DNA from: a virus
Virus record (IMG/VR): IMGVR_UViG_3300046007_014300
Coordinates: 1-64,000 of that record
Length of the DNA: 64,000 nucleotides
Strand: one strand, 5' to 3'
Shown here: piece after piece, positions 5,014 through 62,904 of the stretch
Layout of the letters: every line of letters begins with the position of its first letter
How positions within the stretch are numbered: the stretch's first letter is position 1
Program-made: the position numbers and the translations under genes
Notes under the pieces: model-generated
Database searches by the model: none
What the model was told of the DNA's origin: nothing
The model's input: only the letters and a program-made list of their open reading frames with translations

Positions 5014-5443
5014 GGAGGGTTACCTCAGCTGGGTTATCGCTGCAACGGCTGCCTTTTATGTGGCCGGAATGGCCACCAGGGCCCTAATGAGGCGCCTTCG
5101 GGCTGAGCCACTGTTCTGGCTGTTGCGTCCGAAGGCGCCCAGCTTGGTCCTTGGCATTGACCCGGGCACAGAAGAAGGGATGGCCGTTGCCTGTGTGCTT
5201 CTCTCGACCCCTTTCTCAGCTTTCTCAGCTGCAGACTCCCTGGCGTTCGGTGGGATGGAGGAGGCGGAGCCTCAACAAGTGCTGGGTGAACCAAGGCAAC
5301 CACAGCCCTACCAAGTAGCAGCCATTGAGTCCATTGAAAGCGGTGGAAGCGGTGGAAGCAGCTACAACCCCAAGCCCAGCTATCCTCCATCCGATCGCTC
5401 GGGCCCGCGCCAGCGCCGGCCCCGGGGCTTCAAAGCATCGTGA
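4952..5443 (+). CDS. Putative single-span membrane protein
   Basis: 163 residues in a plus-strand frame with codon use like its neighbours, filling the 416-base gap between the terminase and the next minus-strand gene. A hydrophobic segment YLSWVIAATAAFYVAGM followed by basic residues (RALMRRLR) predicts one membrane span. The C-terminal half is low in order, with a Gly/Ser run and a basic end. No ribosome binding site is visible at the ATG. It overlaps the terminase 3' end by 14 bases. It might be a lysis accessory or superinfection protein, but nothing proves this. Confidence 0.5.
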   Translation: MTLLAGITKADWGKSLKQSCKEGYLSWVIAATAAFYVAGMATRALMRRLRAEPLFWLLRPKAPSLVLGIDPGTEEGMAVACVLLSTPFSAFSAADSLAFGGMEEAEPQQVLGEPRQPQPYQVAAIESIESGGSGGSSYNPKPSYPPSDRSGPRQRRPRGFKAS

Positions 5444-6920
5444 TCCAGCTGCTGTCCATCGGCCGCGCCGCCGCCCCAGCTTGGCCCGCCATGGCCAGGG
5501 CCATCACGGCATCATCGTGGTGCCCTGGGGCGGCGGCGCGCCCGCCTTTTTCGTCCTGGCGGAAGTTCCGCAGCTGATGGCCGAGGCCCTCGCGCTCTTC
5601 ACCGTCCGGGAATGGGCCCTTGGGAATGACCAGCTCCTCCTGCTCCAACAACAGCACGATCCGATCGGTCATCAGCAATTTTGAAGGCCCGCCAGTATGA
5701 ATTTCAGTTATTTCGATTGATGGGCGCAGCAAGCAAAGAGCTTCAGCAACCGCTGCGCCAACACCATTGTTTTCGACTGCCACCAGCACCGGCGCATATT
5801 CGTCAATCAGCCGGGCGCAACGCCGCAGGCCGTAGTCCCGGCTTTGGCCGCTCACGTTGAAACCGGCCACCACCCGCCACGGGCTGCGGGTGACATCGAG
5901 GACGATGCCGCAGAAGCCGTCGCCGCCGCCGCCATTGGGATCAATACCCAGCACGTAGACGTTCTGCCGATAGGGCGATTCCCAGCCACCGCGAGACTCG
6001 GCCAGCTCGATCAGATCGTGGGAGTAAACCTCAGAGTCGCTGGCGGTGAAATCAAGCTCGAATTCACTTTGCCACTGAGCCTTGGTGATTTGTAGCGCGC
6101 GTCTATGTTTTTCAGGCCACTCTGGATCCTGGTTGTAGACCGGATGCTGGGAGTAATGAATGCAAATCTTGGCGTACTGGTTGTCCGGGCTGATTCGCAG
6201 CCGCGGGATGCCATTGGCCCCCATCGGCGTGGGATCGACAACCACTTCGCCGTGATCTTCGTGCCAGTGATCAGAAAACGCCCCGGATCGGCCTTTGGGG
6301 GTTGTAACCCACACGTGCCGCGCCGCGTCACCCAGCATGCTGGTAGTCGGCAGGGCGCCCTGCTCAATCCCCTTGAGCTTCTCGATGAAGGCCGCTTCAT
6401 CGAACAGCAACATCGACGCCGAGGGGATGCCCCGGGCAGCCCGTTCGGTGGGCGGCAGAAAATGCAGGCTGCCGAAGCCGTTGAAAACCAGCTTCCGCAT
6501 TGAATCCTTTGCGAACTTGGGGCAGCGTTCCCGCAGGCTGCTGGCCTGGCCCTTGATTCGCGCGGCCAGCTCGCTGGCGTCTTCGCCGGTTTTTGAAAAA
6601 ACGACACCTGTCCATGCCGTTTTACGAATGGATTGACAGAGCTTGTACGAAATGATCGTTTCAGATGCGCCTACCTGACGGCTTTTCAGCACATAAACAT
6701 TTTTCACCCTGCGAATTACTTTGATTAAATCACGTTGATATACGTAAGGCACGAATGGCATGTACTTGCCACTTGAAGCGATTAACGTCTGTTCTGCGAA
6801 GTCTGGCCAGGCAGGAGGAAGCGTGTCCCATGGGGCGGCGGCCTTTTCAGACGTGCCCAGCGCTGGAATGGGTGAATACCAATCAACTATTGAAGGTGGC
6901 TTTACAATTATCTGAACCAT
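5430..6920 (-). CDS. terL: Terminase large subunit
   Basis: 496 residues. The ATPase half has a Walker-A-like KSRQVGASE (residues 79-87) and Walker B LLFDEAAF (171-178), followed by a coupling motif VWVTTPKG. The nuclease half has the RNase H-fold acidic residues in GIDPNGGGGD (Asp327), VAVENNGVG and HHDDAVMALA (about 468). This is the motor that packages DNA into the prohead and cuts it. It sits 3 bases downstream of the small subunit on the minus strand, while the portal and capsid genes are on the plus strand 4 kb away, an unusual arrangement. Confidence 0.95.
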   Translation of the reverse strand: MVQIIVKPPSIVDWYSPIPALGTSEKAAAPWDTLPPAWPDFAEQTLIASSGKYMPFVPYVYQRDLIKVIRRVKNVYVLKSRQVGASETIISYKLCQSIRKTAWTGVVFSKTGEDASELAARIKGQASSLRERCPKFAKDSMRKLVFNGFGSLHFLPPTERAARGIPSASMLLFDEAAFIEKLKGIEQGALPTTSMLGDAARHVWVTTPKGRSGAFSDHWHEDHGEVVVDPTPMGANGIPRLRISPDNQYAKICIHYSQHPVYNQDPEWPEKHRRALQITKAQWQSEFELDFTASDSEVYSHDLIELAESRGGWESPYRQNVYVLGIDPNGGGGDGFCGIVLDVTRSPWRVVAGFNVSGQSRDYGLRRCARLIDEYAPVLVAVENNGVGAAVAEALCLLRPSIEITEIHTGGPSKLLMTDRIVLLLEQEELVIPKGPFPDGEEREGLGHQLRNFRQDEKGGRAAAPGHHDDAVMALAMAGQAGAAARPMDSSWITML

Positions 6921-6923
6921 GCC

Positions 6924-7361
6924 TTACTCAAAATCCTCGCGAGGATCATGGGCCGCAGCTTCCCTGGTTGCCTGGTTGGCCACAATGTCGGCATCAGGCG
7001 CCTTTTCCATGAAATAGCGAGCCATCGAATCGCACGCCTGGATCATTGCGCCAGGATTTTTCAGCGTTCTCGCCAGCTTGTAAGAATTCTCATAGCGATG
7101 AAAAATAATCAAGGCTATTCGCCTCTTATCGGTTTCTGTCAGCGACTCGACCATACCGCCAATCGCTTCATTGATATAAAGGCGAGCATTTGGCAAGCTC
7201 AGCCCCCATTTCTGGATGCAATGGCCCTCTAGGTCAAGGGCGGAATAGCCGTTAATACAAAGGGTTTGTAACTCCCGCACACGAAATAGTTTCTCTAATC
7301 GCGTTGCTTTTTTCCTGGGCTTTTTGGCTCCGGCAGGTTTTTTTTCTGCTGCTCCTGCCAC
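6924..7361 (-). CDS. terS: Probable terminase small subunit
   Basis: 145 residues from a GTG start at 7361. The N-terminus is very basic (KKPAGAKKPRKKATRLEK), then a helix-turn-helix-like part (LCINGYSALDLEGHCIQKWGLSLPNARLYINEAI) and a helical oligomerisation part. This is the usual plan of small terminases, which recognise the packaging site and regulate the large subunit. The assignment rests mainly on its position directly upstream of terL. The 130 bases before it separate it from a divergent plus-strand gene and should hold promoters for both directions. Confidence 0.75.
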   Translation of the reverse strand: MAGAAEKKPAGAKKPRKKATRLEKLFRVRELQTLCINGYSALDLEGHCIQKWGLSLPNARLYINEAIGGMVESLTETDKRRIALIIFHRYENSYKLARTLKNPGAMIQACDSMARYFMEKAPDADIVANQATREAAAHDPREDFE

Positions 7362-7491: not shown

Positions 7492-8916
7492 ATGCAGCGG
7501 GTCTTTGGTGCAATTGAGGCCCAACTGGACCGCATCGATGCTCGCCTAGGTGCCCGCAAGGCACGAGCGCCTGGCCAACTGGATCTGTTCGGCGGTGGCG
7601 CCCAAATTGACATGACGATGCCTGGCCAGGCTCCCAACAGCGGCCGGAACAGCCAGAAGCCCCCGGCGGTGGGCCGGGCGGCCCGCGGCGCAACCGCACG
7701 AGAGGGCAAGCCTTGCGGGGATGGTCACATCTCTGCGGGCCTCACCTGCCACAAATCAGGCAGTGCAGCGACACCAGACGCCCAAACACCACCCAAGGGG
7801 CCAGCCTCCGCTCCAGCCACGCCAACAGCAGGGGAGGCGGCCCAGGGCAACACCAGCGCCGAGGCCTCTCCAGGCAGCGGTGCTGCCACCAGCTACGCCA
7901 GCCCAGCAGACCTCAGCTACGAGCTTGCCCTGGATGCCCACAGAGGCACTTCCTTTGACCCGGAGAAACGAGCCAGATCACACCAAGAGGATTACGCCGC
8001 TCATCTAAACAGCCTCTACGCACGACTGCAGGAGTCGGCTGAGTCACCGGAGCAAAGAGCGATCTTGGACGCCGAGATGAAGGCATACAAGGATGGCTAC
8101 ACCAAGCGCTATACCGCCTGGCTGGGCGCAAAAAGCCGGATTGTGAGCCCAATGATCGCCGGGCCCAGCAATTTCCCGGTGCGGCGCATGGAGAAGGCAA
8201 ACCGTGCTGAAGATGTGAGACGGCGCGAGCTGGAGGATTTCACCACCAGGGCCCAAAGCAGCATCTATCGCAAGCTGCAGCGTGGCCGCACTCCAGAGGC
8301 CGCCCACGCCCAGGAGCTGGCCATGGTCGCCCGCAGCATCGATAGAAGCATCACCTGGACAAGGGAAGCGGAATCGGGGCGCACGTTTTACGACCGGTCG
8401 TCAGCGGCGGCCTCGATTTCGGGCAAAATAAGCCGCTTGGCCAAAAACGGCCAGGTGGAGCTAGTGCGTGACCTCCTCGACCACCTAAGAGACCAACAGG
8501 ACACGCTGCGCAAGCCATTGTTCACCCCCAGGCATTCGGTCTGGAACCTGGAGGAGACGGCCCGGCAACAACGGCTGGCAACAACCGCCAAAGCCGCCTC
8601 AGCAAAAGCCGGTGCAGCAGCAGCGGACTACAAAAGCGGTGAGATCGAGCGTGATTTCGACAACAACCGGGTCCGGATCCGGTTCCACAATGGCAAGCCA
8701 TCCGATGCCATCCGCAGCCAGCTGAAAAGATCTGGCTGGCGCTGGAGCCCCAGCAACAGCGCGTGGCAGCGCATGAACACCGAAAACAGCGTCTACGCGG
8801 CCAAGCGCATCCTCAAAGCTGCTGATGAAGAGCAAAAATCCCGTGGTGACAGCATTGAAGCAATCGAAAACAGACTGCTACGGCTGAGTGCAGCTAAATC
8901 AAAAGTTGCATGTTAG
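7492..8916 (+). CDS. Tagged multidomain protein (polyvalent-type)
   Basis: 474 residues. Residues 10-90 are the shared module of this genome: a helix RIDARLGARKARAPGQL, then GGGAQ, PPAVGRAAR and the Cys tag GKPCGDGHISAGLTCHK. The middle is long charged helices. Residues about 393-430 (IRFHNGKPSDAIRSQLK, then GWRWSPSNSAWQRM) match a small domain that recurs in large multidomain proteins of phages and plasmids, in which a short insert precedes a Trp-rich 'xWxR' turn. The same tag, nearly identical in DNA, is carried by the proteins at 18388 and 22161. I infer a virion-delivered accessory protein. Confidence 0.8.
   Translation: MQRVFGAIEAQLDRIDARLGARKARAPGQLDLFGGGAQIDMTMPGQAPNSGRNSQKPPAVGRAARGATAREGKPCGDGHISAGLTCHKSGSAATPDAQTPPKGPASAPATPTAGEAAQGNTSAEASPGSGAATSYASPADLSYELALDAHRGTSFDPEKRARSHQEDYAAHLNSLYARLQESAESPEQRAILDAEMKAYKDGYTKRYTAWLGAKSRIVSPMIAGPSNFPVRRMEKANRAEDVRRRELEDFTTRAQSSIYRKLQRGRTPEAAHAQELAMVARSIDRSITWTREAESGRTFYDRSSAAASISGKISRLAKNGQVELVRDLLDHLRDQQDTLRKPLFTPRHSVWNLEETARQQRLATTAKAASAKAGAAAADYKSGEIERDFDNNRVRIRFHNGKPSDAIRSQLKRSGWRWSPSNSAWQRMNTENSVYAAKRILKAADEEQKSRGDSIEAIENRLLRLSAAKSKVAC
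7525..7755 (+). repeat. Copy 1 of tag-encoding DNA repeat
   Basis: Encodes RIDARLGARKARAPGQL through GKPCGDGHISAGLTCHK. The last 45 bases differ from the copy ending at 20424 at only a few positions, much closer than the surrounding genes. It points to recent duplication or gene conversion of the tag module. Confidence 0.75.
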
Positions 8917-9668: not shown

Positions 9669-9965
9669 ATGGCACCAGTGGATTGGAGCAAATATCCAGA
9701 CGACTGGAAAGAGATCGCCCTCAATGTGAAGCGCCAATCGGACTGGGCCTGCGAAGGCTGCAAAACCCAGTGCCGGCGCCCCGGGGAGCCGTTTGTCACC
9801 CACCGGCTGACACTCACGGTCGCTCACATCAACCACATCGAGCACGACTGCCGGCCCGAGAACCTGGTGGCCCTATGCGCACCCTGCCACCTGCGCTATG
9901 ACGGTGAGAGGCGCCGGCTGCAAAAGCGAGCGCTGGCACGCATTCAAAACGTAAAACAAACCTAA
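9669..9965 (+). CDS. HNH endonuclease
   Basis: 98 residues. It carries CEGC, the catalytic AHINHIEHD with the His pair, the Asn in RPENLVALC and a second CAPC pair, so the beta-beta-alpha-metal fold with a structural zinc is complete. Small HNH proteins near terminase genes often assist cos cleavage or packaging in long-tailed phages; it may alternatively be a free-standing homing enzyme. Its 3' end overlaps the convergent sigma-factor gene by 4 bases. Confidence 0.88.
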
Positions 9966-10858
9966 AATAATGATTCCTGAATGACTTGCTCACCATCGTC
10001 GATCATGGCCATGCGACGCAGCTTGCCCATTGCCTTGTTGACGATGTTGGAAACCCGATCAGCAGTTGTATCAAGCATCCTGGCGATTTCTGTTTTAGGC
10101 AATTCATTTAGATACAACAGCTCAATTATTTCGGTTTCTTCATCTGATAGAAAAGGGAGCATTGCCGCCAGCCTCTCAAGCTGAAGAGCATTTTCCAGCC
10201 GATCTTCCTCAATATCGACGCGGCTTTTGGGGCATGGCAAGACCTCTTCTAGGCAGCGCTTCTCATCAGGCAACAGGACTGATGTGCTGCCGCATTTTTT
10301 GGCGCGAGCCCCTATCCGAATGCGTTCCAACTGTTCCATACTTTTTAGCCCTGAAATCTCCAGCAACTCAGCATCCGTAAGCCGATTTGGACTGGATGCG
10401 ATATGGCGCTCGACCCTGAACAGCACCTCCAGCACATTGGTCGGGATGCGAATCGTATCCGCAGTTTCTGCCAGGGCGCGATACATCGCCTGTCGCACCC
10501 ACCAATAGGCATAAGTGCCCAGGGTATAACCCTTGGTCGGATCGAACATCTCGACCCCGCGCTGCAAGCCGATTGCCCCCTCCTGGATCAGATCCTCAAG
10601 GGGGAGGCCCATCCGGCAATACTTTTTGGCGACGGTGACGCACATCCTCATGTTTCCTGTCACCAACCGGTCTCGTGCCCGCATGCCTGCTCGCCGTATT
10701 GCCCCCGGCGCCGCGTCAGGGCCGCCAGGCCAATCCAGCCACTCTCGAACCTGCTGGCCCCTGAGCAGCTGCTCGGTCTTGTTTGGGATCGGATACCGGC
10801 CGAAATCGGCCAGCATGGCGCCGACCATTGATGATCTCTCGCCTGACCTGCTGGCCAT
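9962..10858 (-). CDS. Phage-borne sigma-70-family factor
   Basis: Up to 298 residues. A region-1.2-like start ([20 protein letters not shown]), region 2 with [17 protein letters not shown] (about 89-105) and [10 protein letters not shown] (promoter melting), region 3, and a region 4 HTH ([20 protein letters not shown]) are all present. This plan is that of cyanobacterial primary/group 2 sigma factors, which bind core RNA polymerase and recognise -10 and -35 boxes. In-frame starts exist at 10858, 10828 and 10816; 10828 has a purine-rich upstream stretch. It is divergent from the portal operon and probably redirects host polymerase to phage genes. Confidence 0.9.
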
Positions 10859-10994
10859 GGCCCCGCATCGCCGATGGTCGCCGCAAGCCTACCGTCCATC
10901 CCGTCCAGGATTGGCGATGAAGTGCCCAGGCATTCAGGAGAATGGACGGGCGGCCTTAACCTGATCGAGCGCCTTTCGTAAAAGAGCAGGGATT
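10859..10994. promoter_or_regulatory. Divergent intergenic region, sigma factor / head operon
   Basis: 136 bases between the minus-strand sigma gene and the plus-strand portal gene. It must hold the sigma promoter and probably the head-operon promoter. I see no confident -35/-10 pair, which would be expected if the phage's own sigma reads an unusual promoter. The GCAGGGA stretch just before 10995 can serve as ribosome binding site for the portal. Confidence 0.4.
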
Positions 10995-13001
10995 TTGGCT
11001 ACCGACGGAATCGCTTTTGAGGAACGGTTTGACGGGGTATTGGTTAACACCCTGACCAGAATGGGCACCAGTCAGGACAAGGAGCGATACACCGGTGTTG
11101 CAGCGCCGGAAATTCTGCAACCCGCTGACCTGGACGCTTTATACATAAACAACTGGCTCTGCCGGCGCATTGTCGACATCATCCCGCAGGAGACCACCAG
11201 GGCGGGCTGGGCCCTGACCCTGGGCACGGAAACCACCGATGCTGAGAAAAAGCGGTTTGATCGGCTGGTTGCGGTTGGCGAAGACATGGGGATCCGCACC
11301 CATGTCAAGAAAGCCATGCGGCAGTCTCGCCTTCATGGTGGCGCGGCGATCATCATGATTTTGGACGACAACACTCCCATCGATGAGCCTGTCAACCTCA
11401 AGAAGCTACGGGCCATCAAGGGGCTACATGCCATGGATTGCCAACGGATTTGGCCGGCAGCGGGCTGGAGCGGTGTAGGCGAACCTGACCTTTATCAAAT
11501 GCAAATCAATCGAGATGAAGATTTGCGGAAGATTGGGATGAAAGATCAATTACTGCATGTGCCTATCCATCGCTCAAGGCTGCTGCGTTTTGAAGGGGAC
11601 GATGCTCCGTACAGCTACAAAAGTCACTTTAAGTGGTGGGGCATATCCGTATTGCAGTCCGTTTGGAATGTATTCAAGCGCTATGAAACAGGCCAAGCAT
11701 CAGCCGCCAACATCCTTAACGATTTCAGCCTTTATGTGCAAAAAATCAAGGGTTTAAAAGGCATGGTTGAGCAAGGGAAAGGCGACTTTGTGGCCAATCG
11801 GTTGTCACTGAACGCGCTGATGCGTTCAGTGATCGGCGGGATCGCCCTGGACGCTGATGGCGAGGAGGCCTCGTTTCTGACCCGTTCGGCCGCCGGGGTC
11901 GATTCGATCATCGAAAGACTCAAGGATGAGGTGCAGGGGGCAAGCCGGATCCCCCATACCAAGCTTTGGGGCAGCTCCCCATCGGGGTTAGGGGCCACTG
12001 GGCAGTCCGAGAAGTCGGATTTTGCGCAGGAAGTTCACATGCTCCAGGAGGACCACCTGGATCGGGCGCTGCGGCAGTACTACGAAACCCTGGCCGCCTG
12101 CTCAACCAATCGGGCAGCAATGGAATTGCCGGAGGATTGGCAGATTGATTTTCACAGCACCATCACCCTTTCCGACCTGGAAGAGGCCGAGCTACGGGGC
12201 AAGGTGGCAACGGCCGACAGCCAGAACATCCAGTCAGGTGTGTTGCAGCCCAACGAAGTGGCCTTGGCGCGTTTTGGCGGGGCCAAGTTCTCGATGGAAA
12301 CCACCCTGCTGGACCGCGAGAAGAATGGCGCGATCAAACAGGATCCCCAAAACCTGCCACCACCCACTTTTGGTGGTGACCTGGCCACTCTGCCCGGCGA
12401 GGCCATTGGCCAGGGCCAGGGCCAGCAGCAGGCCCCCCGGGGGGACAGCGGGGACGAACGCGACGACGGTTGCTGCCGCCCCTGCGACGCCGCCACCGCC
12501 AGGGGGAAGCCCGCCACCTGCAACGACGGCGCCGTCGACGGCCAGCAGCAGGCCGATGACCAGCTGGAGGGGTCGTTGCAGGTGGAGGGCTTTCCCCTCC
12601 AGCAAGCGGCGGCCGCCGAGGCCCACGCCAAGGCGATCGCCAGGGCAATCGCGCAGGACAAGCGCCGCAAGGGCCGCGGCCGGCGGCCCGGGGTACGGGC
12701 GGACGGCAGCCGGGTGACCGGTCGGAGGGTGGTGGCCGGCGTGCCAGTTGACGTCCGCATCGATGGCAGCGCCACCCTGGTCGGACCCTACGGGCAGGCC
12801 CTGGCTCTCGAAGCGGCAGTGGGCTTTGACTGCAGCGGGCTATGGGAGGTGCTCAGCCCAGCCGGCCAATGGACCGCCGTGGTGGGAGTGGAAGACCAGG
12901 CCATGGTGGTGGCCGCCGCCGGCCCGGGTGCCCGGGTGCGCCGCCTCGATGGCATCGACTTGCTGGCGATGGGGGTCCGATGCGACAGCTATGAGCCATG
13001 A
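10995..13001 (+). CDS. Portal protein (DUF1073 type) with C-terminal extension
   Basis: 668 residues from a TTG start. The first 430 residues fit the DUF1073 portal family: NTLTRMGTSQDKERYTG, LDALYINNWLCRRIVDIIP, and the clip/crown region with LWGSSPSGLGATGQSE. The portal is the dodecameric ring at the head vertex through which DNA enters and leaves. From about residue 430 it has an extra 240 residues: a Gln/Gly-rich linker, a Cys cluster (CCRPCD, then GKPATC), a basic helix and a small beta domain ending VRCDSYEP. That extension is longer than expected for the family. Its stop overlaps the MuF gene start. Confidence 0.88.
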   Translation: MATDGIAFEERFDGVLVNTLTRMGTSQDKERYTGVAAPEILQPADLDALYINNWLCRRIVDIIPQETTRAGWALTLGTETTDAEKKRFDRLVAVGEDMGIRTHVKKAMRQSRLHGGAAIIMILDDNTPIDEPVNLKKLRAIKGLHAMDCQRIWPAAGWSGVGEPDLYQMQINRDEDLRKIGMKDQLLHVPIHRSRLLRFEGDDAPYSYKSHFKWWGISVLQSVWNVFKRYETGQASAANILNDFSLYVQKIKGLKGMVEQGKGDFVANRLSLNALMRSVIGGIALDADGEEASFLTRSAAGVDSIIERLKDEVQGASRIPHTKLWGSSPSGLGATGQSEKSDFAQEVHMLQEDHLDRALRQYYETLAACSTNRAAMELPEDWQIDFHSTITLSDLEEAELRGKVATADSQNIQSGVLQPNEVALARFGGAKFSMETTLLDREKNGAIKQDPQNLPPPTFGGDLATLPGEAIGQGQGQQQAPRGDSGDERDDGCCRPCDAATARGKPATCNDGAVDGQQQADDQLEGSLQVEGFPLQQAAAAEAHAKAIARAIAQDKRRKGRGRRPGVRADGSRVTGRRVVAGVPVDVRIDGSATLVGPYGQALALEAAVGFDCSGLWEVLSPAGQWTAVVGVEDQAMVVAAAGPGARVRRLDGIDLLAMGVRCDSYEP

Positions 13002-22164: not shown

Positions 22165-24497
22165 GGTTGGCCATCCCCGAAAGATTGACATTTAGCCTGG
22201 CCGCCCAGGACGCTAGGGATCAGGGTGACACTGTCACCTACATGAAACTGATGAACCGCCATGCGGCCATCGTGATGGGCCGCCGCAAGCCACGATCAGA
22301 GATCAGCGGTCGAATTGACAGCACCTGGGATCGCATTGATGCCCTGAAGGCCCGGCTTGATGCCCGGGCGCGATCGGCACCAGGCCAGCTGGAACTGCTC
22401 ACCGGTGGCGGAGCGCAAGCAGAACTTCCCCTGGGCGGCACCACCGGCCAGGGGGGCCGCAAGCCAGCAGCGGTAGGCCGGGCCGCCAAGGCCGCGGCGA
22501 CCGGCAACAGCAAAGCCGGCAAGCCCTGCGGGGAGTCCCACATCTCGGCGGCCAAGCAGTGCCGCAAAGGGGAGACAGGCGAAAGCCAGGAAGGCCAGGA
22601 AGCTCCAGCTGACAAGCCGGCAGCAGGGCGGAAGGGAGGACGCCCAACAGCACCTGCCGACCCCCGGGAGGGAACCACCGGAGCGGTTGAGTCTGGTGAC
22701 TATGAATTCGCCCGAAAATCCGAGGTCCCGAACGCCGGGGAAGACCTGGCCCTATCGGCCCGCCATCGGCGAAACATGTTCTTGGGATTGGCGGCGGAGG
22801 AGGCCGCCGGCACCGCCGAAAAGAACCTCACTCGCGACAACCTGCTCAAGGCCACACCCCATGACCTGATCGCCGGCATGACCCCGGCCAACAGCCTGAG
22901 CAGCCTTCAGGGTTACCTCACGCTCCAGGCGTTCCCGGCGCGGCCGTACAGCGAAAAGGAACTGGCGGGTTACCAGCGGGCAATGGAACGGCAGGCGCGG
23001 CCAGGGATGCAGTCCACGGCTGTTTCTCCGGAAGGCCTGCGGGAGCAATATCACGATGCGTTTCAGCAGCTCCATGGGCTGGTTCATGCGCTACAAAAAC
23101 ATGCCGATCCTAATGCCAATCGTTTAGTTATTCTAAAATGGATTAACGATAAGGTTCGAGAGTTACGGCAGCAAACAGGCGACACGTCGTCTTATGCAAT
23201 CGGAACAGCAAAAGACCCATACAATCCTGTAGCCAACAGTCTGATTGATTTTTCGCGGCGCATTGGCCGTCGGGGGACTACCTCCGTGCCCGGGAAGATG
23301 GAAGATTTCTCCCGTCGGCTCAAGGCCGCCATGGGCAACGACTTTGGGTCGGCCGAAACCACCTTGGAAAAGGCGAGGGAAATTGCGACCCGGATCATGG
23401 AGGGCAGCAGCTTCAACGAGGCCTTCGGGACCGTCGGCGCCAATGGCAAGCGGCGCTTCAATCCGGCGGATCTCTACGTGGCCCCGGCCAATCGCCAAGG
23501 GGGCCGCAACGTCGGTGGCTCGACGATTGAGCAGGGCACCGATTTCATTCTCAAGGGATCCGGGTTCCGAGGTCTGCAGTTTGGCAACAGCGTCAGCGAT
23601 GACGAGCGCAAGCACCACCTGAAGAAGGCGGCCGAGGCCCTGGCCGACCTGGCCGATGTGACCGGCCTGCCTGATGAAGCCATGGGCTTGAAGGGTTCTC
23701 TGGGCCTGGCCATTGGCGCCAGAGGGCGAGGTGCTGCGCTGGCTCACTTCGAGCCAAAGCTCAAGGTGATCAACCTCACCCGCAAACGGGGCATCGGCAC
23801 CCTTTCCCACGAATGGGGCCACGCTCTCGACAACTACCTGGGGCTGAAGGCCGGGGTGGCGGCGAGCAGCGCCCCCAATAGCGACAGGATCCACCCGGAC
23901 CACGTTTTCCTCACCAACTCAGGCAAACCGTGGGAGAAGGATCCCAAAAACCCATCCCCGGTGATCGACGCGATGAAGGCCGTGAAAGAGGCCCATGTCA
24001 CATCGGGCTTCATGGATCAAGTGGATAAGGAGTCCAGGGGCCTGAAAAGGGCCATGGCCTTCAATGAGGACTACTGGCGTTCGCGGCCAGAGATGTTCGC
24101 TCGATCATTTGAAGCCCACATTGACCGCAAGCTGCAGGCCCTTGGCCGGGCGAACACCTATCTGACGCAGACCCCCGACTCTTTGCTATGGCCGACTGCT
24201 GAGCAGTCCGCAGCAATGGCGCCAGCCTTTGATCGGCTATTGGCCGCCGTGCGCGCAGAGCACTTTGCCGACGCCCCAAAGCGTAATGATGCAAGGGGTG
24301 TCCGCATTGATCGCTTCATGGCCGCCTTGGAACGCAACACGCCTCAGAAGCCGAGAAAGCAGCCAGGGCAAACTGAACCCGAGCAAAAATCCGAATCTCC
24401 CGCCACCGAAGCCCCGATCAACTGGGACAACGTCGCCAGCGAAGTGAAGACCATGCTGGAGCTGGACTCCAAGGATTTAGACGGCGGCACCGATTAG
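22161..24497 (+). CDS. Tagged LPD1 / zincin polyvalent protein
   Basis: 778 residues, start overlapping the kinase stop (ATGA). Residues 50-136 are the shared module ending GKPCGESHISAAKQCRK. The region FRGLQFGNSVSDDERKHHL through GLAIGARGRG and HEWGHALDNYLG (about 550-561) is the large polyvalent-protein-associated domain LPD1 with an intact zinc-metallopeptidase HExxH-type site (HEWGH). Polyvalent proteins of this kind were described in phages and conjugative plasmids and are thought to enter the recipient cell with the DNA to counter its defences. The C-terminus is Pro/Glu-rich. The peptidase may process its own chain or host proteins. Confidence 0.88.
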   Translation: MRLAIPERLTFSLAAQDARDQGDTVTYMKLMNRHAAIVMGRRKPRSEISGRIDSTWDRIDALKARLDARARSAPGQLELLTGGGAQAELPLGGTTGQGGRKPAAVGRAAKAAATGNSKAGKPCGESHISAAKQCRKGETGESQEGQEAPADKPAAGRKGGRPTAPADPREGTTGAVESGDYEFARKSEVPNAGEDLALSARHRRNMFLGLAAEEAAGTAEKNLTRDNLLKATPHDLIAGMTPANSLSSLQGYLTLQAFPARPYSEKELAGYQRAMERQARPGMQSTAVSPEGLREQYHDAFQQLHGLVHALQKHADPNANRLVILKWINDKVRELRQQTGDTSSYAIGTAKDPYNPVANSLIDFSRRIGRRGTTSVPGKMEDFSRRLKAAMGNDFGSAETTLEKAREIATRIMEGSSFNEAFGTVGANGKRRFNPADLYVAPANRQGGRNVGGSTIEQGTDFILKGSGFRGLQFGNSVSDDERKHHLKKAAEALADLADVTGLPDEAMGLKGSLGLAIGARGRGAALAHFEPKLKVINLTRKRGIGTLSHEWGHALDNYLGLKAGVAASSAPNSDRIHPDHVFLTNSGKPWEKDPKNPSPVIDAMKAVKEAHVTSGFMDQVDKESRGLKRAMAFNEDYWRSRPEMFARSFEAHIDRKLQALGRANTYLTQTPDSLLWPTAEQSAAMAPAFDRLLAAVRAEHFADAPKRNDARGVRIDRFMAALERNTPQKPRKQPGQTEPEQKSESPATEAPINWDNVASEVKTMLELDSKDLDGGTD
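22330..22568 (+). repeat. Copy 3 of tag-encoding DNA repeat
   Basis: Encodes RIDALKARLDARARSAPGQL through GKPCGESHISAAKQCRK. Compared with copies 1 and 2 the middle (AAKAAATGNSKAGKPCG) is almost unchanged at DNA level, whereas the end is more diverged. Confidence 0.75.
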
Positions 24498-24736
24498 AGG
24501 GCCAGCAGGGCATCGGCCGATACCTGCAGCACCTGGCAGATCACCCTGATCTGCGCCGGGGATGCCGAGGCCCTGCCTAGCTCAAGTTTGGCGATCCAGG
24601 GCTGGCCGACACCGGCGCATTCAGCCAGCTGGGCCTGGGTGAGGCCCCGCCGGTGGCGGGCGGTTCGGATGCGGCCGCCCATCTCCCGCCGGACGTACGG
24701 GGCAGGAGGGACCACAAACGGGCGGTCCTCAAACAT
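24494..24736 (-). CDS. XRE-family HTH regulator
   Basis: 80 residues from the ATG at 24736; a longer frame reaches 24793. The HTH is clear: GGRIRTARHRRGLTQAQLAE, CAGVGQPWIAKLELGRASAS, then QIRVICQVLQVSADALLAL, the Cro/C1-type five-helix domain with no extra C-terminal domain. It sits alone on the minus strand between the LPD1 protein and the capsid-protease gene and ends 4 bases into the former. It may repress late genes or act as an antitoxin-like regulator, but no toxin partner is visible. It is another candidate for the palindromic sites. Confidence 0.85.
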   Translation of the reverse strand: MFEDRPFVVPPAPYVRREMGGRIRTARHRRGLTQAQLAECAGVGQPWIAKLELGRASASPAQIRVICQVLQVSADALLAL

Positions 24737-24807
24737 GCCGATGCGGAATAAAACACGATTCAGGCTAAGGAAACCCGCAGTTTGGTATCTCATCCGAACT
24801 GGGTGGT

Positions 24808-26130
24808 GTGAGCGAGGAATGGAGGTTTGACCGTGGCGCCATTAGCCCCAACTGGGAGAAAACCCCAGATGGGTTCTTGCGTGTCCGTGGAACCTTCAGC
24901 CGCGTCGGTTGTCTCTCCTACAAGCGAGCGGACGGCAGCACCCAGGTCGAATATCGCCCGGAAGAAGAGGTTGCTCATCGCGACTCAATTCTTTCGCTTG
25001 GGGGATTGCCCGTCACCCATGAGCATCCCCCAGAGCTGCTGACCCCTGCCAACACTCGGCAGTATCAACGCGGATCGACTGGAACCGAAGTCAAGTACGA
25101 CAACGGTTTTGTCAAAGGCGTCGTCATCCTCACAGACGCCGAACTCATCGCCGCCGTTGAACGCGGCGATGCCAGGGAATTGTCGATTGGCTATCGCGTT
25201 CAGATCGATCGCACACCAGGGGTTACGGCCACAGGTGAGCAATACGACGCGATCCAGCGACGCATCGTGGGAAACCATTTGGCGGTGACCAGGGAAGGCC
25301 GATCTGGGTCTGAGGTCCGCTTGCACATGGATTCCGCATTCTCGATCGATCCACCACCCCCCTCTCCGCCATCACCCCCCCCCTTGGAGGCCCATGAAAT
25401 GACCACGGCTGTTGCAGCACTGTCCAGCGCCACCGCGACCTTGGCCACCGCCCTGGCGGGCCAAAGCCGCTCGGATGGCAAGCAACGCTCCATGCCCATC
25501 CAGGAAATGGCGATGGATCCTGAAGATGACCCCGACGGCGACCCCGAGGAAACCTCTGACGAGGAGGGCATGGAACCCGACGAAATGCAAAAGCCCAAAA
25601 AGCCGATGGCCAGGCGTCGCCGTAGTGACAGCGTGGTGTCACGGCAGGAATACGAGCGGGTGGTGACCGCGCTGGCTGACAGCGAGCGGGCACACCAGAC
25701 GGATCTCGGCCGGATGGATGCGATCAGCGAACGGCTCGCCGAACTGGAAGCAGATCTGGACACCAGGCTCGATTCCAGCGAGATCGATCTCGATGCGCTG
25801 GTCACCGAAAAGCTGGAGCTGCTGGAGCGGGCCAATGAATTGGCCGGTGAACGAATCGACCATTCCGGCCTATCGCCGCGACAACTGCAACTGGAAGCAA
25901 TGCAGAAATCGGGTGTGGCGATCGAGCGCTTCGATAGTAAATCCGACGAATACGTGGCCGCGGCATTCGACACCTACTGCGATGCCAACACCAGCCCCAA
26001 CCGCCTGGACCACTCATCCGCTCTGGAGCTCCTGCTTGGCAAAACTTCGGGAGAGACCACTTCGGATCCCCGCGAAGGATATAAACAACGGCTTGAAAGT
26101 GCTTCTCGACAACCGTTGGCCAGCAACTGA
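24808..26130 (+). CDS. DUF2213 prohead protease fused to scaffold
   Basis: 440 residues from a GTG start. Residues 1-175 fit DUF2213: FLRVRGTFSRVGCLSY, LGGLPVTHEHP, GFVKGVVILTDAELI and ELSIGYRVQIDR, the family of capsid maturation proteases found next to DUF2184 capsids. After a Pro run (residues 181-193) comes a long acidic and coiled-coil scaffold-like region. In-frame at 25399 an ATG has a perfect GGAGG 8 bases upstream, so the scaffold part is probably also made alone. It precedes the cement and capsid genes in standard order. Confidence 0.88.
   Translation: MSEEWRFDRGAISPNWEKTPDGFLRVRGTFSRVGCLSYKRADGSTQVEYRPEEEVAHRDSILSLGGLPVTHEHPPELLTPANTRQYQRGSTGTEVKYDNGFVKGVVILTDAELIAAVERGDARELSIGYRVQIDRTPGVTATGEQYDAIQRRIVGNHLAVTREGRSGSEVRLHMDSAFSIDPPPPSPPSPPPLEAHEMTTAVAALSSATATLATALAGQSRSDGKQRSMPIQEMAMDPEDDPDGDPEETSDEEGMEPDEMQKPKKPMARRRRSDSVVSRQEYERVVTALADSERAHQTDLGRMDAISERLAELEADLDTRLDSSEIDLDALVTEKLELLERANELAGERIDHSGLSPRQLQLEAMQKSGVAIERFDSKSDEYVAAAFDTYCDANTSPNRLDHSSALELLLGKTSGETTSDPREGYKQRLESASRQPLASN
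25386..26130 (+). CDS. Nested in-frame scaffold protein (internal start)
   Basis: GGAGG at 25386-25390 lies 8 bases before the ATG at 25399, in frame with the DUF2213 protein, immediately after its Pro-rich linker. The product would be 243 residues: an Ala/Thr-rich start, an acidic region (EDDPDGDPEETSDEEG) and a long coiled coil. This mirrors lambda C/Nu3, where the scaffold is translated from inside the protease gene. The inference rests on the strong ribosome binding site and domain boundary. The feature begins at the binding site. Confidence 0.6.
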
Positions 26131-31749: not shown

Positions 31750-32171
31750 CAAACCTACGGGCGTTTCTAGAGCGAAAACCAACCGATTGGAATAGCATCT
31801 ACTTTCGCCTGGCCAGTTCTGATCTGCATGATCCCCGCTTTCATGCAGATCAATTCCATTTGCAACCAGTCGGCCACATTTTTAAGGCGATCGAATGGCT
31901 CAATGAGCATGACCAGCAGAAGGCCAACATCCTTTCCCACACCACGGCCCGGCTGGCGGCGATCGTTCTGGCGATTGGATCCCAGGGCACGGCCAAAAGC
32001 GACCACACCGAATTCCTGCCTTTCTTGGCGCCACTCCCTGGAGGCAAGCCCAACATCAAGCCAGCCGTGATCGCCACCATCGAGGGGTTGATTCGCGCCA
32101 GGCGTCTGCCCATGGCCATTGTCGCCCTGCTGGCGGAGGACATTCGCTCGACCATGAAACCGGCAGAATGA
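31707..32171 (+). CDS. Frameshift extension (gpT-like) of tail chaperone
   Basis: 154 residues reached by -1 frameshift from the upstream gene; it has no good independent start. After the linker APGGARK it forms a helical domain: NLRAFLERKPTDWNSIYFRLAS, HIFKAIEWLNEHDQQKANILSHTTARLAAIVLAI, ending RSTMKPAE. In lambda the T part binds the tube protein while the G part binds the tape measure. The extension is expected to be made in small amounts. Confidence 0.82.
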   Translation, partial: APGGARKQTIHEQIANLRAFLERKPTDWNSIYFRLASSDLHDPRFHADQFHLQPVGHIFKAIEWLNEHDQQKANILSHTTARLAAIVLAIGSQGTAKSDHTEFLPFLAPLPGGKPNIKPAVIATIEGLIRARRLPMAIVALLAEDIRSTMKPAE

Positions 32172-41415: not shown

Positions 41416-41611
41416 GAAAACAAGACGACTTCTTCGACATTAGCGGCGCATGACTACCCTGGCAACATAAAGTACATGGTTCCAGCAAGGCCGCGGCGGC
41501 AACTTGGACCATTTGCGTGCGGCCACGAAAATGGTGCTGACCAGACCGCTCGCGCCAACCCCTGCCGTGCCACTGGAGTGGCCTCCGTAGCCTGGGGCTA
41601 TTCAGTGGTCG

Positions 41612-57699: not shown

Positions 57700-57910
57700 A
57701 GAATTCAGATGTTGAATGTGATGGTAGAGGGCCTGGCCTGACTGGGCTCGACGCCTTGCGGATCGCTGGGGAGCGGCTGTAAGCACACGTTCTGCAAAGA
57801 ACCCCGGTTCGGCCCCGGGGTTTCTTTGTGGATGCAGATATAGGCCATCCACGAAACAGGATAGGGGCTTGCTGGCGTCTCGAACAACTGATGGGCGGGA
57901 ATCGGGCAGA
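57700..57910. promoter_or_regulatory. Divergent control region of replication and recombination operons
   Basis: 211 bases between the initiator (minus) and the 57911 gene (plus). Both early promoters should be here. The strong hairpin at 57796-57827 splits it in two, which would insulate or attenuate the two transcripts. I cannot pick -10/-35 boxes with confidence. Confidence 0.45.
57796..57827. terminator. Bidirectional intrinsic-type terminator hairpin
   Basis: AAAGAACCCCGG, loop TTCGGCC-type, CCGGGGTTTCTTT: a 12-base GC stem with A/T flanks on both sides, giving a T-rich end on either strand. It lies inside the divergent control region and may be an attenuator. Confidence 0.75.
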
Positions 57911-58849
57911 ATGCAAGAGCCACCCTTCTCCATGCGGACACGGTCATTGCCCAAAGCCACCCCGCCAGAACTGCAGCGCTTTGCGCGCGGGCAAGAGACC
58001 TTCGCCGCTTTGACTCGCAGCTGGATGGCGCGCTCGGGCTGGAGCTATGCCGCCATGGCCGACCTGGCCGAAGCCGCCGTTGTCGCCCTGGAGGCGAACG
58101 GCATCCCCGGCATGGGGCAGGGCCCTTATGCCACGGATGATCTTGCTATCGCAAATGGCCACGTCTGGCGCGCTAAGAGGGACGGCATTGGCAACAACAC
58201 CACCATCCCCAAGCTGAATCAGGAATCAGAGGACTGGGAACGGGTCGCCACCGTGCGCAGGATTTTTGCCTCCCAGATCAACAACCTGCAACGCCAACTG
58301 CTCAAGCAGGTATCGCCGGTGATTTTTGACAGCTACGGGCTGCTCAACAAATACATTGAGGCCGTCCAGACCGGCAAACTGCCAGCACCCAAATCAGAGG
58401 TCCTGGCTCGGCATATCAGCAGCGCTGTAACGATCACCGACGAACAGGGCCTCTACGGCGCCGAAGAATTTTTCAGCGTTTATTTGGGCAACTTGTCCCC
58501 GGAAATCGTTGAACCGGTGGTGAACGATCAGGAAGCTCGATCCATTAGCGCAGCCGTAGCCAAGAAAATTCGCGAAGGCATTCAGGCCTGCAAACTTGAT
58601 CTGATCGACGACTGGAGCCAGTTCCTCTCCTGTTACCCCACATCAAACCCTGAGCGACTGGCCCGCATCCGCGAGGTGGCCCTGGGCCTTGGTGCCTGGT
58701 CAGCGGATCAGGTGCGCGACGAGGAGGCCGCCGTCGCCATCGCCCTGGTCCGCCTGGCCAGCCGCAATCGGCCGCAGCTCAGCGATGCCTCAGCAACCGC
58801 TGCACCCGCAATTGAGGGATCCCAGGTATCAACCCAGGGGCAGGGCTGA
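57911..58849 (+). CDS. Hypothetical early protein (regulator?)
   Basis: 312 residues from the ATG at 57911 (57932 possible). The start KATPPELQRFARGQETFAALTRSWMARSGWSYAAMADLAEAAV could hold an HTH. The centre is helical (RIFASQINNLQRQLLKQVSPVIFDSYGLLNKYIEAV) and long helices fill the rest. It is the first gene rightward from the control region, where cI- or Cro-like or antitermination proteins often sit, but no such family is recognised. Confidence 0.8.
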   Translation: MQEPPFSMRTRSLPKATPPELQRFARGQETFAALTRSWMARSGWSYAAMADLAEAAVVALEANGIPGMGQGPYATDDLAIANGHVWRAKRDGIGNNTTIPKLNQESEDWERVATVRRIFASQINNLQRQLLKQVSPVIFDSYGLLNKYIEAVQTGKLPAPKSEVLARHISSAVTITDEQGLYGAEEFFSVYLGNLSPEIVEPVVNDQEARSISAAVAKKIREGIQACKLDLIDDWSQFLSCYPTSNPERLARIREVALGLGAWSADQVRDEEAAVAIALVRLASRNRPQLSDASATAAPAIEGSQVSTQGQG

Positions 58850-62870: not shown

Positions 62871-62904
62871 TCGGCAGAATGGATGGACAACGTATGCCAT
62901 CACG

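Follow-up and report, generated by a model that had tools for sequence, protein, structure and literature searches.

Phage T4 has a late sigma system in gp55, a phage sigma factor for the structural genes. For cyanosiphoviruses, gene timing is little known. Phage-borne sigma factors of cyanobacterial type have been described from P-SS2 (PMC2784084), S-LBS1 (PMC6157547) and KBS2A (PMC3751600), and the database record of S-CBS1 shows that it also carries one. The general kind, a cyanosiphovirus with a sigma factor of its own, is already known, which weakens any novelty resting on the presence of a phage sigma. The locus described here adds a changed -35 recognition helix and two promoter-like words, for which, as far as we found in the literature searched, there is no earlier description.

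Sigma gene and divergent portal gene

The window analyzed is 64,000 nucleotides of a 69,291-bp viral contig. On its minus strand, at 9962..10858, it encodes a sigma-70-family factor of 298 residues, with ATG as start codon. A sequence-only reading had described this gene as a complete region 2 to 4 sigma factor on phage DNA. The family assignment is confirmed by Pfam models Sigma70_r2 (5.4e-17, the -10 and core-binding region) and Sigma70_r4 (3.2e-9, the region 4 helix-turn-helix, also matched by fold), by PHROG_351 "RNA polymerase sigma factor" (3e-44), and by matches to solved structures, the best of which by sequence is cyanobacterial SigA (3e-32). No other Sigma70_r2 match occurs in the 69,291-bp contig. 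As to completeness, Pfam matches regions 2 and 4, while region 3 has no Pfam match and is a candidate domain of three helices, placed with moderate confidence at residues 140-188, between the other two, in an AlphaFold model. That model (12 clade sequences as input, mean pLDDT 75.8, pTM 0.45) has helices that agree with domains 2, 3 and 4, and Foldseek matched it to sigma chains of initiation complexes with low TM-scores, which we read as expected from the flexible linkers of a free sigma. The same sigma is found on seven other viral contigs at 95-99% identity, its frame intact on all eight, with dN/dS of 0.17-0.36 against six close relatives; the open frame is therefore not a chance occurrence. 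By these ratios, the gene is under purifying selection and, by that measure, functional.

The portal protein gene (10995..13001, plus strand; Pfam Phage_portal_3, 1.4e-64) lies divergent from the sigma gene, just as the sequence-only reading had it, although its span for the sigma locus, 9962-10994, took in too much: the gene stops at 10858 and the rest is a 136-bp intergenic region. In most sister loci that hold both genes, a portal gene (46-55% identity) is again directly divergent from sigma. The viral contig, the phage relatives and this conserved placement all mark the sigma as a phage gene. The terL gene (5430-7361) is divergent from the portal gene in the window lineage and on the same strand as the portal gene in three sister lineages (L009, L018, L032), so the terminase block has been inverted or moved.

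No -35/-10 sigma-70 consensus pair was found between the sigma and portal genes, in agreement with the earlier claim that the gap holds no recognizable promoter. Two shorter elements do occur there. On the plus strand, TAACCTGA (10957..10964), a candidate phage -10 element, is followed 38 bp downstream by the portal start, and sister lineages have TAGCCTGA, TACCCTGA or close forms at the same place. On the minus strand, upstream of sigma, is the host-class word TAGGCT (10886..10891), a host-type -10-like hexamer; several sister lineages likewise have TAGGCTG ahead of sigma.

Phylogenetic placement and probable host

Profile searches recovered further viral sigma loci at 33-45% identity. In a tree of 103 sigma factors, 17 viral sequences, including that of the window, form a phage-only clade with support 96/86, apart from host clades and separate from the sigmas of S-CBS1, S-CBS3 and KBS2A. 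Where this clade joins the other sigmas is unsure, judging from the tree, because of long branches near its base. The nearest non-viral relatives of the clade are cyanobacterial sigmas. In a search within the cyanobacterial class covering 390 genomes, the best sigma matches reached about 150 bits, compared with 222-231 bits for sister phages. These best host matches, up to 33-38% identical, are group-2-type sigmas, mostly from small genomes taken to be those of picocyanobacteria; they form a separate clade and have the canonical 4.2 helix SRERVRQLE. The host of the window virus is probably a picocyanobacterium, given these matches and the nearest isolate by portal, S-CBS4.

The sequence-only reading had likened the gene to cyanobacterial group 2 sigmas, and had named as counter-evidence a position within a host gene clade, with no phage relatives and no shared upstream motif. 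The likeness is sustained insofar as the best non-viral matches are all cyanobacterial, and is qualified by the poorly supported joining point and non-canonical -35 residues. What the tree returned was a phage-only clade lying outside the host clades, and upstream words are shared across that clade, as described below.

Two picocyanobacterial chromosomes (L185, L190) encode a 281-residue sigma that the tree separates from the remaining host paralogues and that shares the shorter region 4 loop; it could be a prophage gene. A further cyanobacterial contig (L141) carries a pair of sigma genes with about 1.9 kb between them.

Residues of regions 2.4 and 4.2

In the E. coli sigma factor, contact with the -35 element is made by R584 and E585 and relaxed by changes at R588, and a T to C change at -12 is suppressed by Q437H and T440I (PMC2613000). 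In E. coli numbering, transferred by hand through the alignment, region 2.3-2.4 of the window sigma (residues 118-139; 10441..10507, minus strand) keeps Q437 and has Y for T440. In the region 4.2 recognition helix (10025..10075, minus strand), the canonical -35 contacts R584, E585, R588 and Q589 are absent from the window lineage and replaced by A, D, S and N, respectively. The helix varies within the clade, being SRERVRQIE-like in some sister lineages (L035, L039, L040-L042) and carrying other replacements in others (L018, L019, L032, L043, L044, L046, L047). Host sigmas have some five residues between regions 4.1 and 4.2 that are missing from every member of the clade.

Upstream words across the phage clade

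Two words specific to upstream regions emerged across the clade from an unbiased search: CTAGCCTG, with its variant TAACCTGA before the portal gene, and GGCAGAATG. Gene calls came from a simple script, so that start positions and upstream zones are approximate, and several clade contigs are fragments. When all 7-mers in the clade's upstream zones were ranked, the top three were TAGCCTG, ATTCAGG and CAGAATG. After exclusion of the portal and sigma upstreams and of shared 12-mers, CAGAATG had a family-wise P of 0.003 and TAGCCTG one of 0.05, and none of 300 shuffles scored as high as ATTCAGG. ATTCAGG is the most enriched upstream 7-mer after removal of redundancy (8 against 0.64); its sites, such as 10932, 18432 and 24758 in the window, keep no fixed distance to the other words. 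Reverse-strand counts are unusable as a control for TAGCCTG, because sigma upstreams contain the portal promoter read backwards.

The 9-mer GGCAGAATG was singled out after CAGAATG had been seen, and later enumerations covered all words. Its four copies in the contig all lie on the plus strand and upstream of gene starts, and among 10,908 strand-specific 9-mers with at least three copies in the contig it is the only one with every copy so placed; no four-copy word like it appeared in 150 intergenic shuffles. Among relatives, G397 has the word TAGCCTGG (0 of 200 shuffles) and G006 the word CTAGCCTG (17 of 100 shuffles, weak alone). These two belong to one word family and the window's GGCAGAATG to another, which G397 also shows, as TCAGAATG. 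Two other relatives, G005 and G007, hardly use the words, if at all. In yet another contig (L316, of G400), around 700-2400, TTACAGTGA followed by CCGGGGAGGCC is repeated before several short genes.

Copies of GGCAGAATG are found at 32162..32170, 29 bp before gene 32191, a large gene in the tail operon and candidate tape-measure gene; at 57905..57913, at the start of gene 57911, whose start codon is ambiguous; at 62873..62881, 32 bp before the endolysin-like gene 62905; and, past the end of the window, at contig position 65473. TAGCCTG lies on the plus strand at 41588..41594, 24 bp before tail assembly gene 41612. On the minus strand, at 24761..24767, it is followed by A and stands 31 bp before a gene for an 80-residue HTH repressor-like protein (24494-24736, minus strand); TAGCCTGAAT in this control region is ATTCAGGCTA on the plus strand, and the site could be a repressor site instead of a promoter word. 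The repressor-like gene is divergent from the prohead protease gene at 24808, a position at which S-CBS4 also has a regulator. The distance from word to start codon is narrow, mostly 24-32 bp. The ATG inside CAGAATG was considered as a start codon and is, in the cases looked at, either out of frame or followed by a stop, the exception being the ambiguous start at 57905. Virion and lysis genes make up most, though not all, of those behind the words: in the window portal, tail assembly, the large gene 32191 and the endolysin-like gene, and in relatives genes that include tail-fibre-like and phrog_21-like ones.

The sequence-only reading had proposed to look for a shared motif upstream of five genes. 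One of the words is present at two, as TAACCTGA before 10995 and TAGCCTG before 41612; at 24808 TAGCCTGA is present but reads toward the divergent repressor gene at 24736, and the regions at 7492 and immediately ahead of 17090 contain neither word. Copies of GGCAGAATG, the stronger word, lie at other genes than these five. The suggestion of an unusual promoter class holds to the extent that promoter-like words of non-host type exist.

In two picocyanobacterial genomes, the most enriched -10-like upstream word of those tested was TAGGNT (52 against 14.7 expected), TACGNT gave 34 against 10.9, and TARCCTG was not enriched (2 against 2.7); neither CAGAATG nor TAGCCTG was enriched in host upstream regions. 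The phage S-CBS4, in whose whole 69.4 kb no Sigma70_r2 match was found, has neither the TAGCCTG nor the CAGAATG family enriched and has no 9-mer of the GGCAGAATG kind, with all copies upstream of genes. Words and sigma co-occur in the genomes examined, with this one sigma-less phage a thin control. A blind EM motif search over 47 upstream regions of the contig did no better than shuffles, and inspection by eye found no conserved -35 block upstream of the words.

The change T440Y was considered as the cause of C at -12 and dropped, because CAGAATG is also found in lineages where T440 is intact and the sigma has the canonical 4.2 helix as well. The words therefore do not track the changes in sigma residues.

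Proposed role and rival explanations

We favor, with some reserve, the reading that this is a working alternative sigma of a siphovirus-like picocyanobacterial phage, which redirects host polymerase to phage promoters through the words. The sigma probably descends, by an ancient divergence, from a cyanobacterial group-2-like sigma and has evolved within phages since. It would bind the host core RNA polymerase and steer it to phage promoters, recognizing above all a -10-type element; in the window lineage the -35 element would be contacted hardly or not at all, since the residues that read it are gone. The candidate element that the sigma may recognize is TARCCTGR for portal and tail assembly, and CGGCAGAATG for 32191, endolysin and others. 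Because the sigma gene has a host-type -10 (TAGGCT), the sigma could be made first by host polymerase and then switch on the structural genes; such a late-switch role is plausible. We advance more tentatively the broader picture of a widespread cyanophage lineage whose structural genes use a private promoter class, whose sigmas have repeatedly replaced or lost -35 reading, and in which one divergent control region pairs a host-type sigma promoter with a phage-type portal promoter.

A real sigma might instead mainly reprogram host genes, leaving the phage words to host sigma factors. The words do keep A-11 and T-7, readable by any group 1 or 2 sigma, the clade includes sister sigmas with a canonical 4.2 helix, and Bacillus phage-borne sigmas that alter host behavior are described (PMC9429907). 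We nevertheless consider this unlikely: the words are not enriched in host upstreams, where TAGGNT and TACGNT dominate, and the position of sigma beside the portal gene across the clade suggests a role in the phage program. About equally improbable, in our judgment, is that the sigma controls phage genes through other promoters and that the words are bound by a regulator, whether a phage repressor or another one. The narrow spacing to start codons and the retained -10 features look promoter-like and speak against such sites, although one word does sit in the control region of the repressor-like gene, where the opposite strand of TAGCCTGAAT reads ATTCAGGCTA, and upstream enrichment is also seen for ATTCAGG on its own. 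A decaying or idle passenger gene that no longer recognizes DNA could likewise be suspected from the missing -35 contacts; purifying selection, a frame intact on eight contigs and a position conserved across divergent lineages make this very improbable.

If the favored reading, a phage sigma that reads the words, is right, the locus would be a compact system, open to testing, by which phages of abundant photosynthetic bacteria take over host transcription. Its clade would then offer a series of natural sigma variants, with several changes of -35 recognition against a similar -10 class throughout. For phage contigs that otherwise lack annotation, the words supply specific predicted promoters.

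Comparison with known systems

The sigmas of S-CBS1, S-CBS3, KBS2A, P-SS2 (ORF113) and S-LBS1 resemble that of the window in being phage-borne, of cyanobacterial type and of similar length. They differ from it in sequence (about 30% identity, on a separate tree branch), and the window's clade has a shorter region 4.1-4.2 loop than these cyanosiphovirus group 2 sigmas. In S-CBS1, S-CBS3, KBS2A and S-LBS1, moreover, the sigma gene lies among early-type or nuclease genes, not against the portal gene. Synechococcus phage S-CBS4, the nearest isolate by portal (37%), is similar in genome size and has an HTH regulator before its head genes, as the window does, but its terL and portal genes adjoin with no sigma gene between them. 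The proposed role, a phage sigma for structural genes, is likened to that of T4 gp55; unlike gp55, the window sigma is of the full sigma-2/3/4 type.
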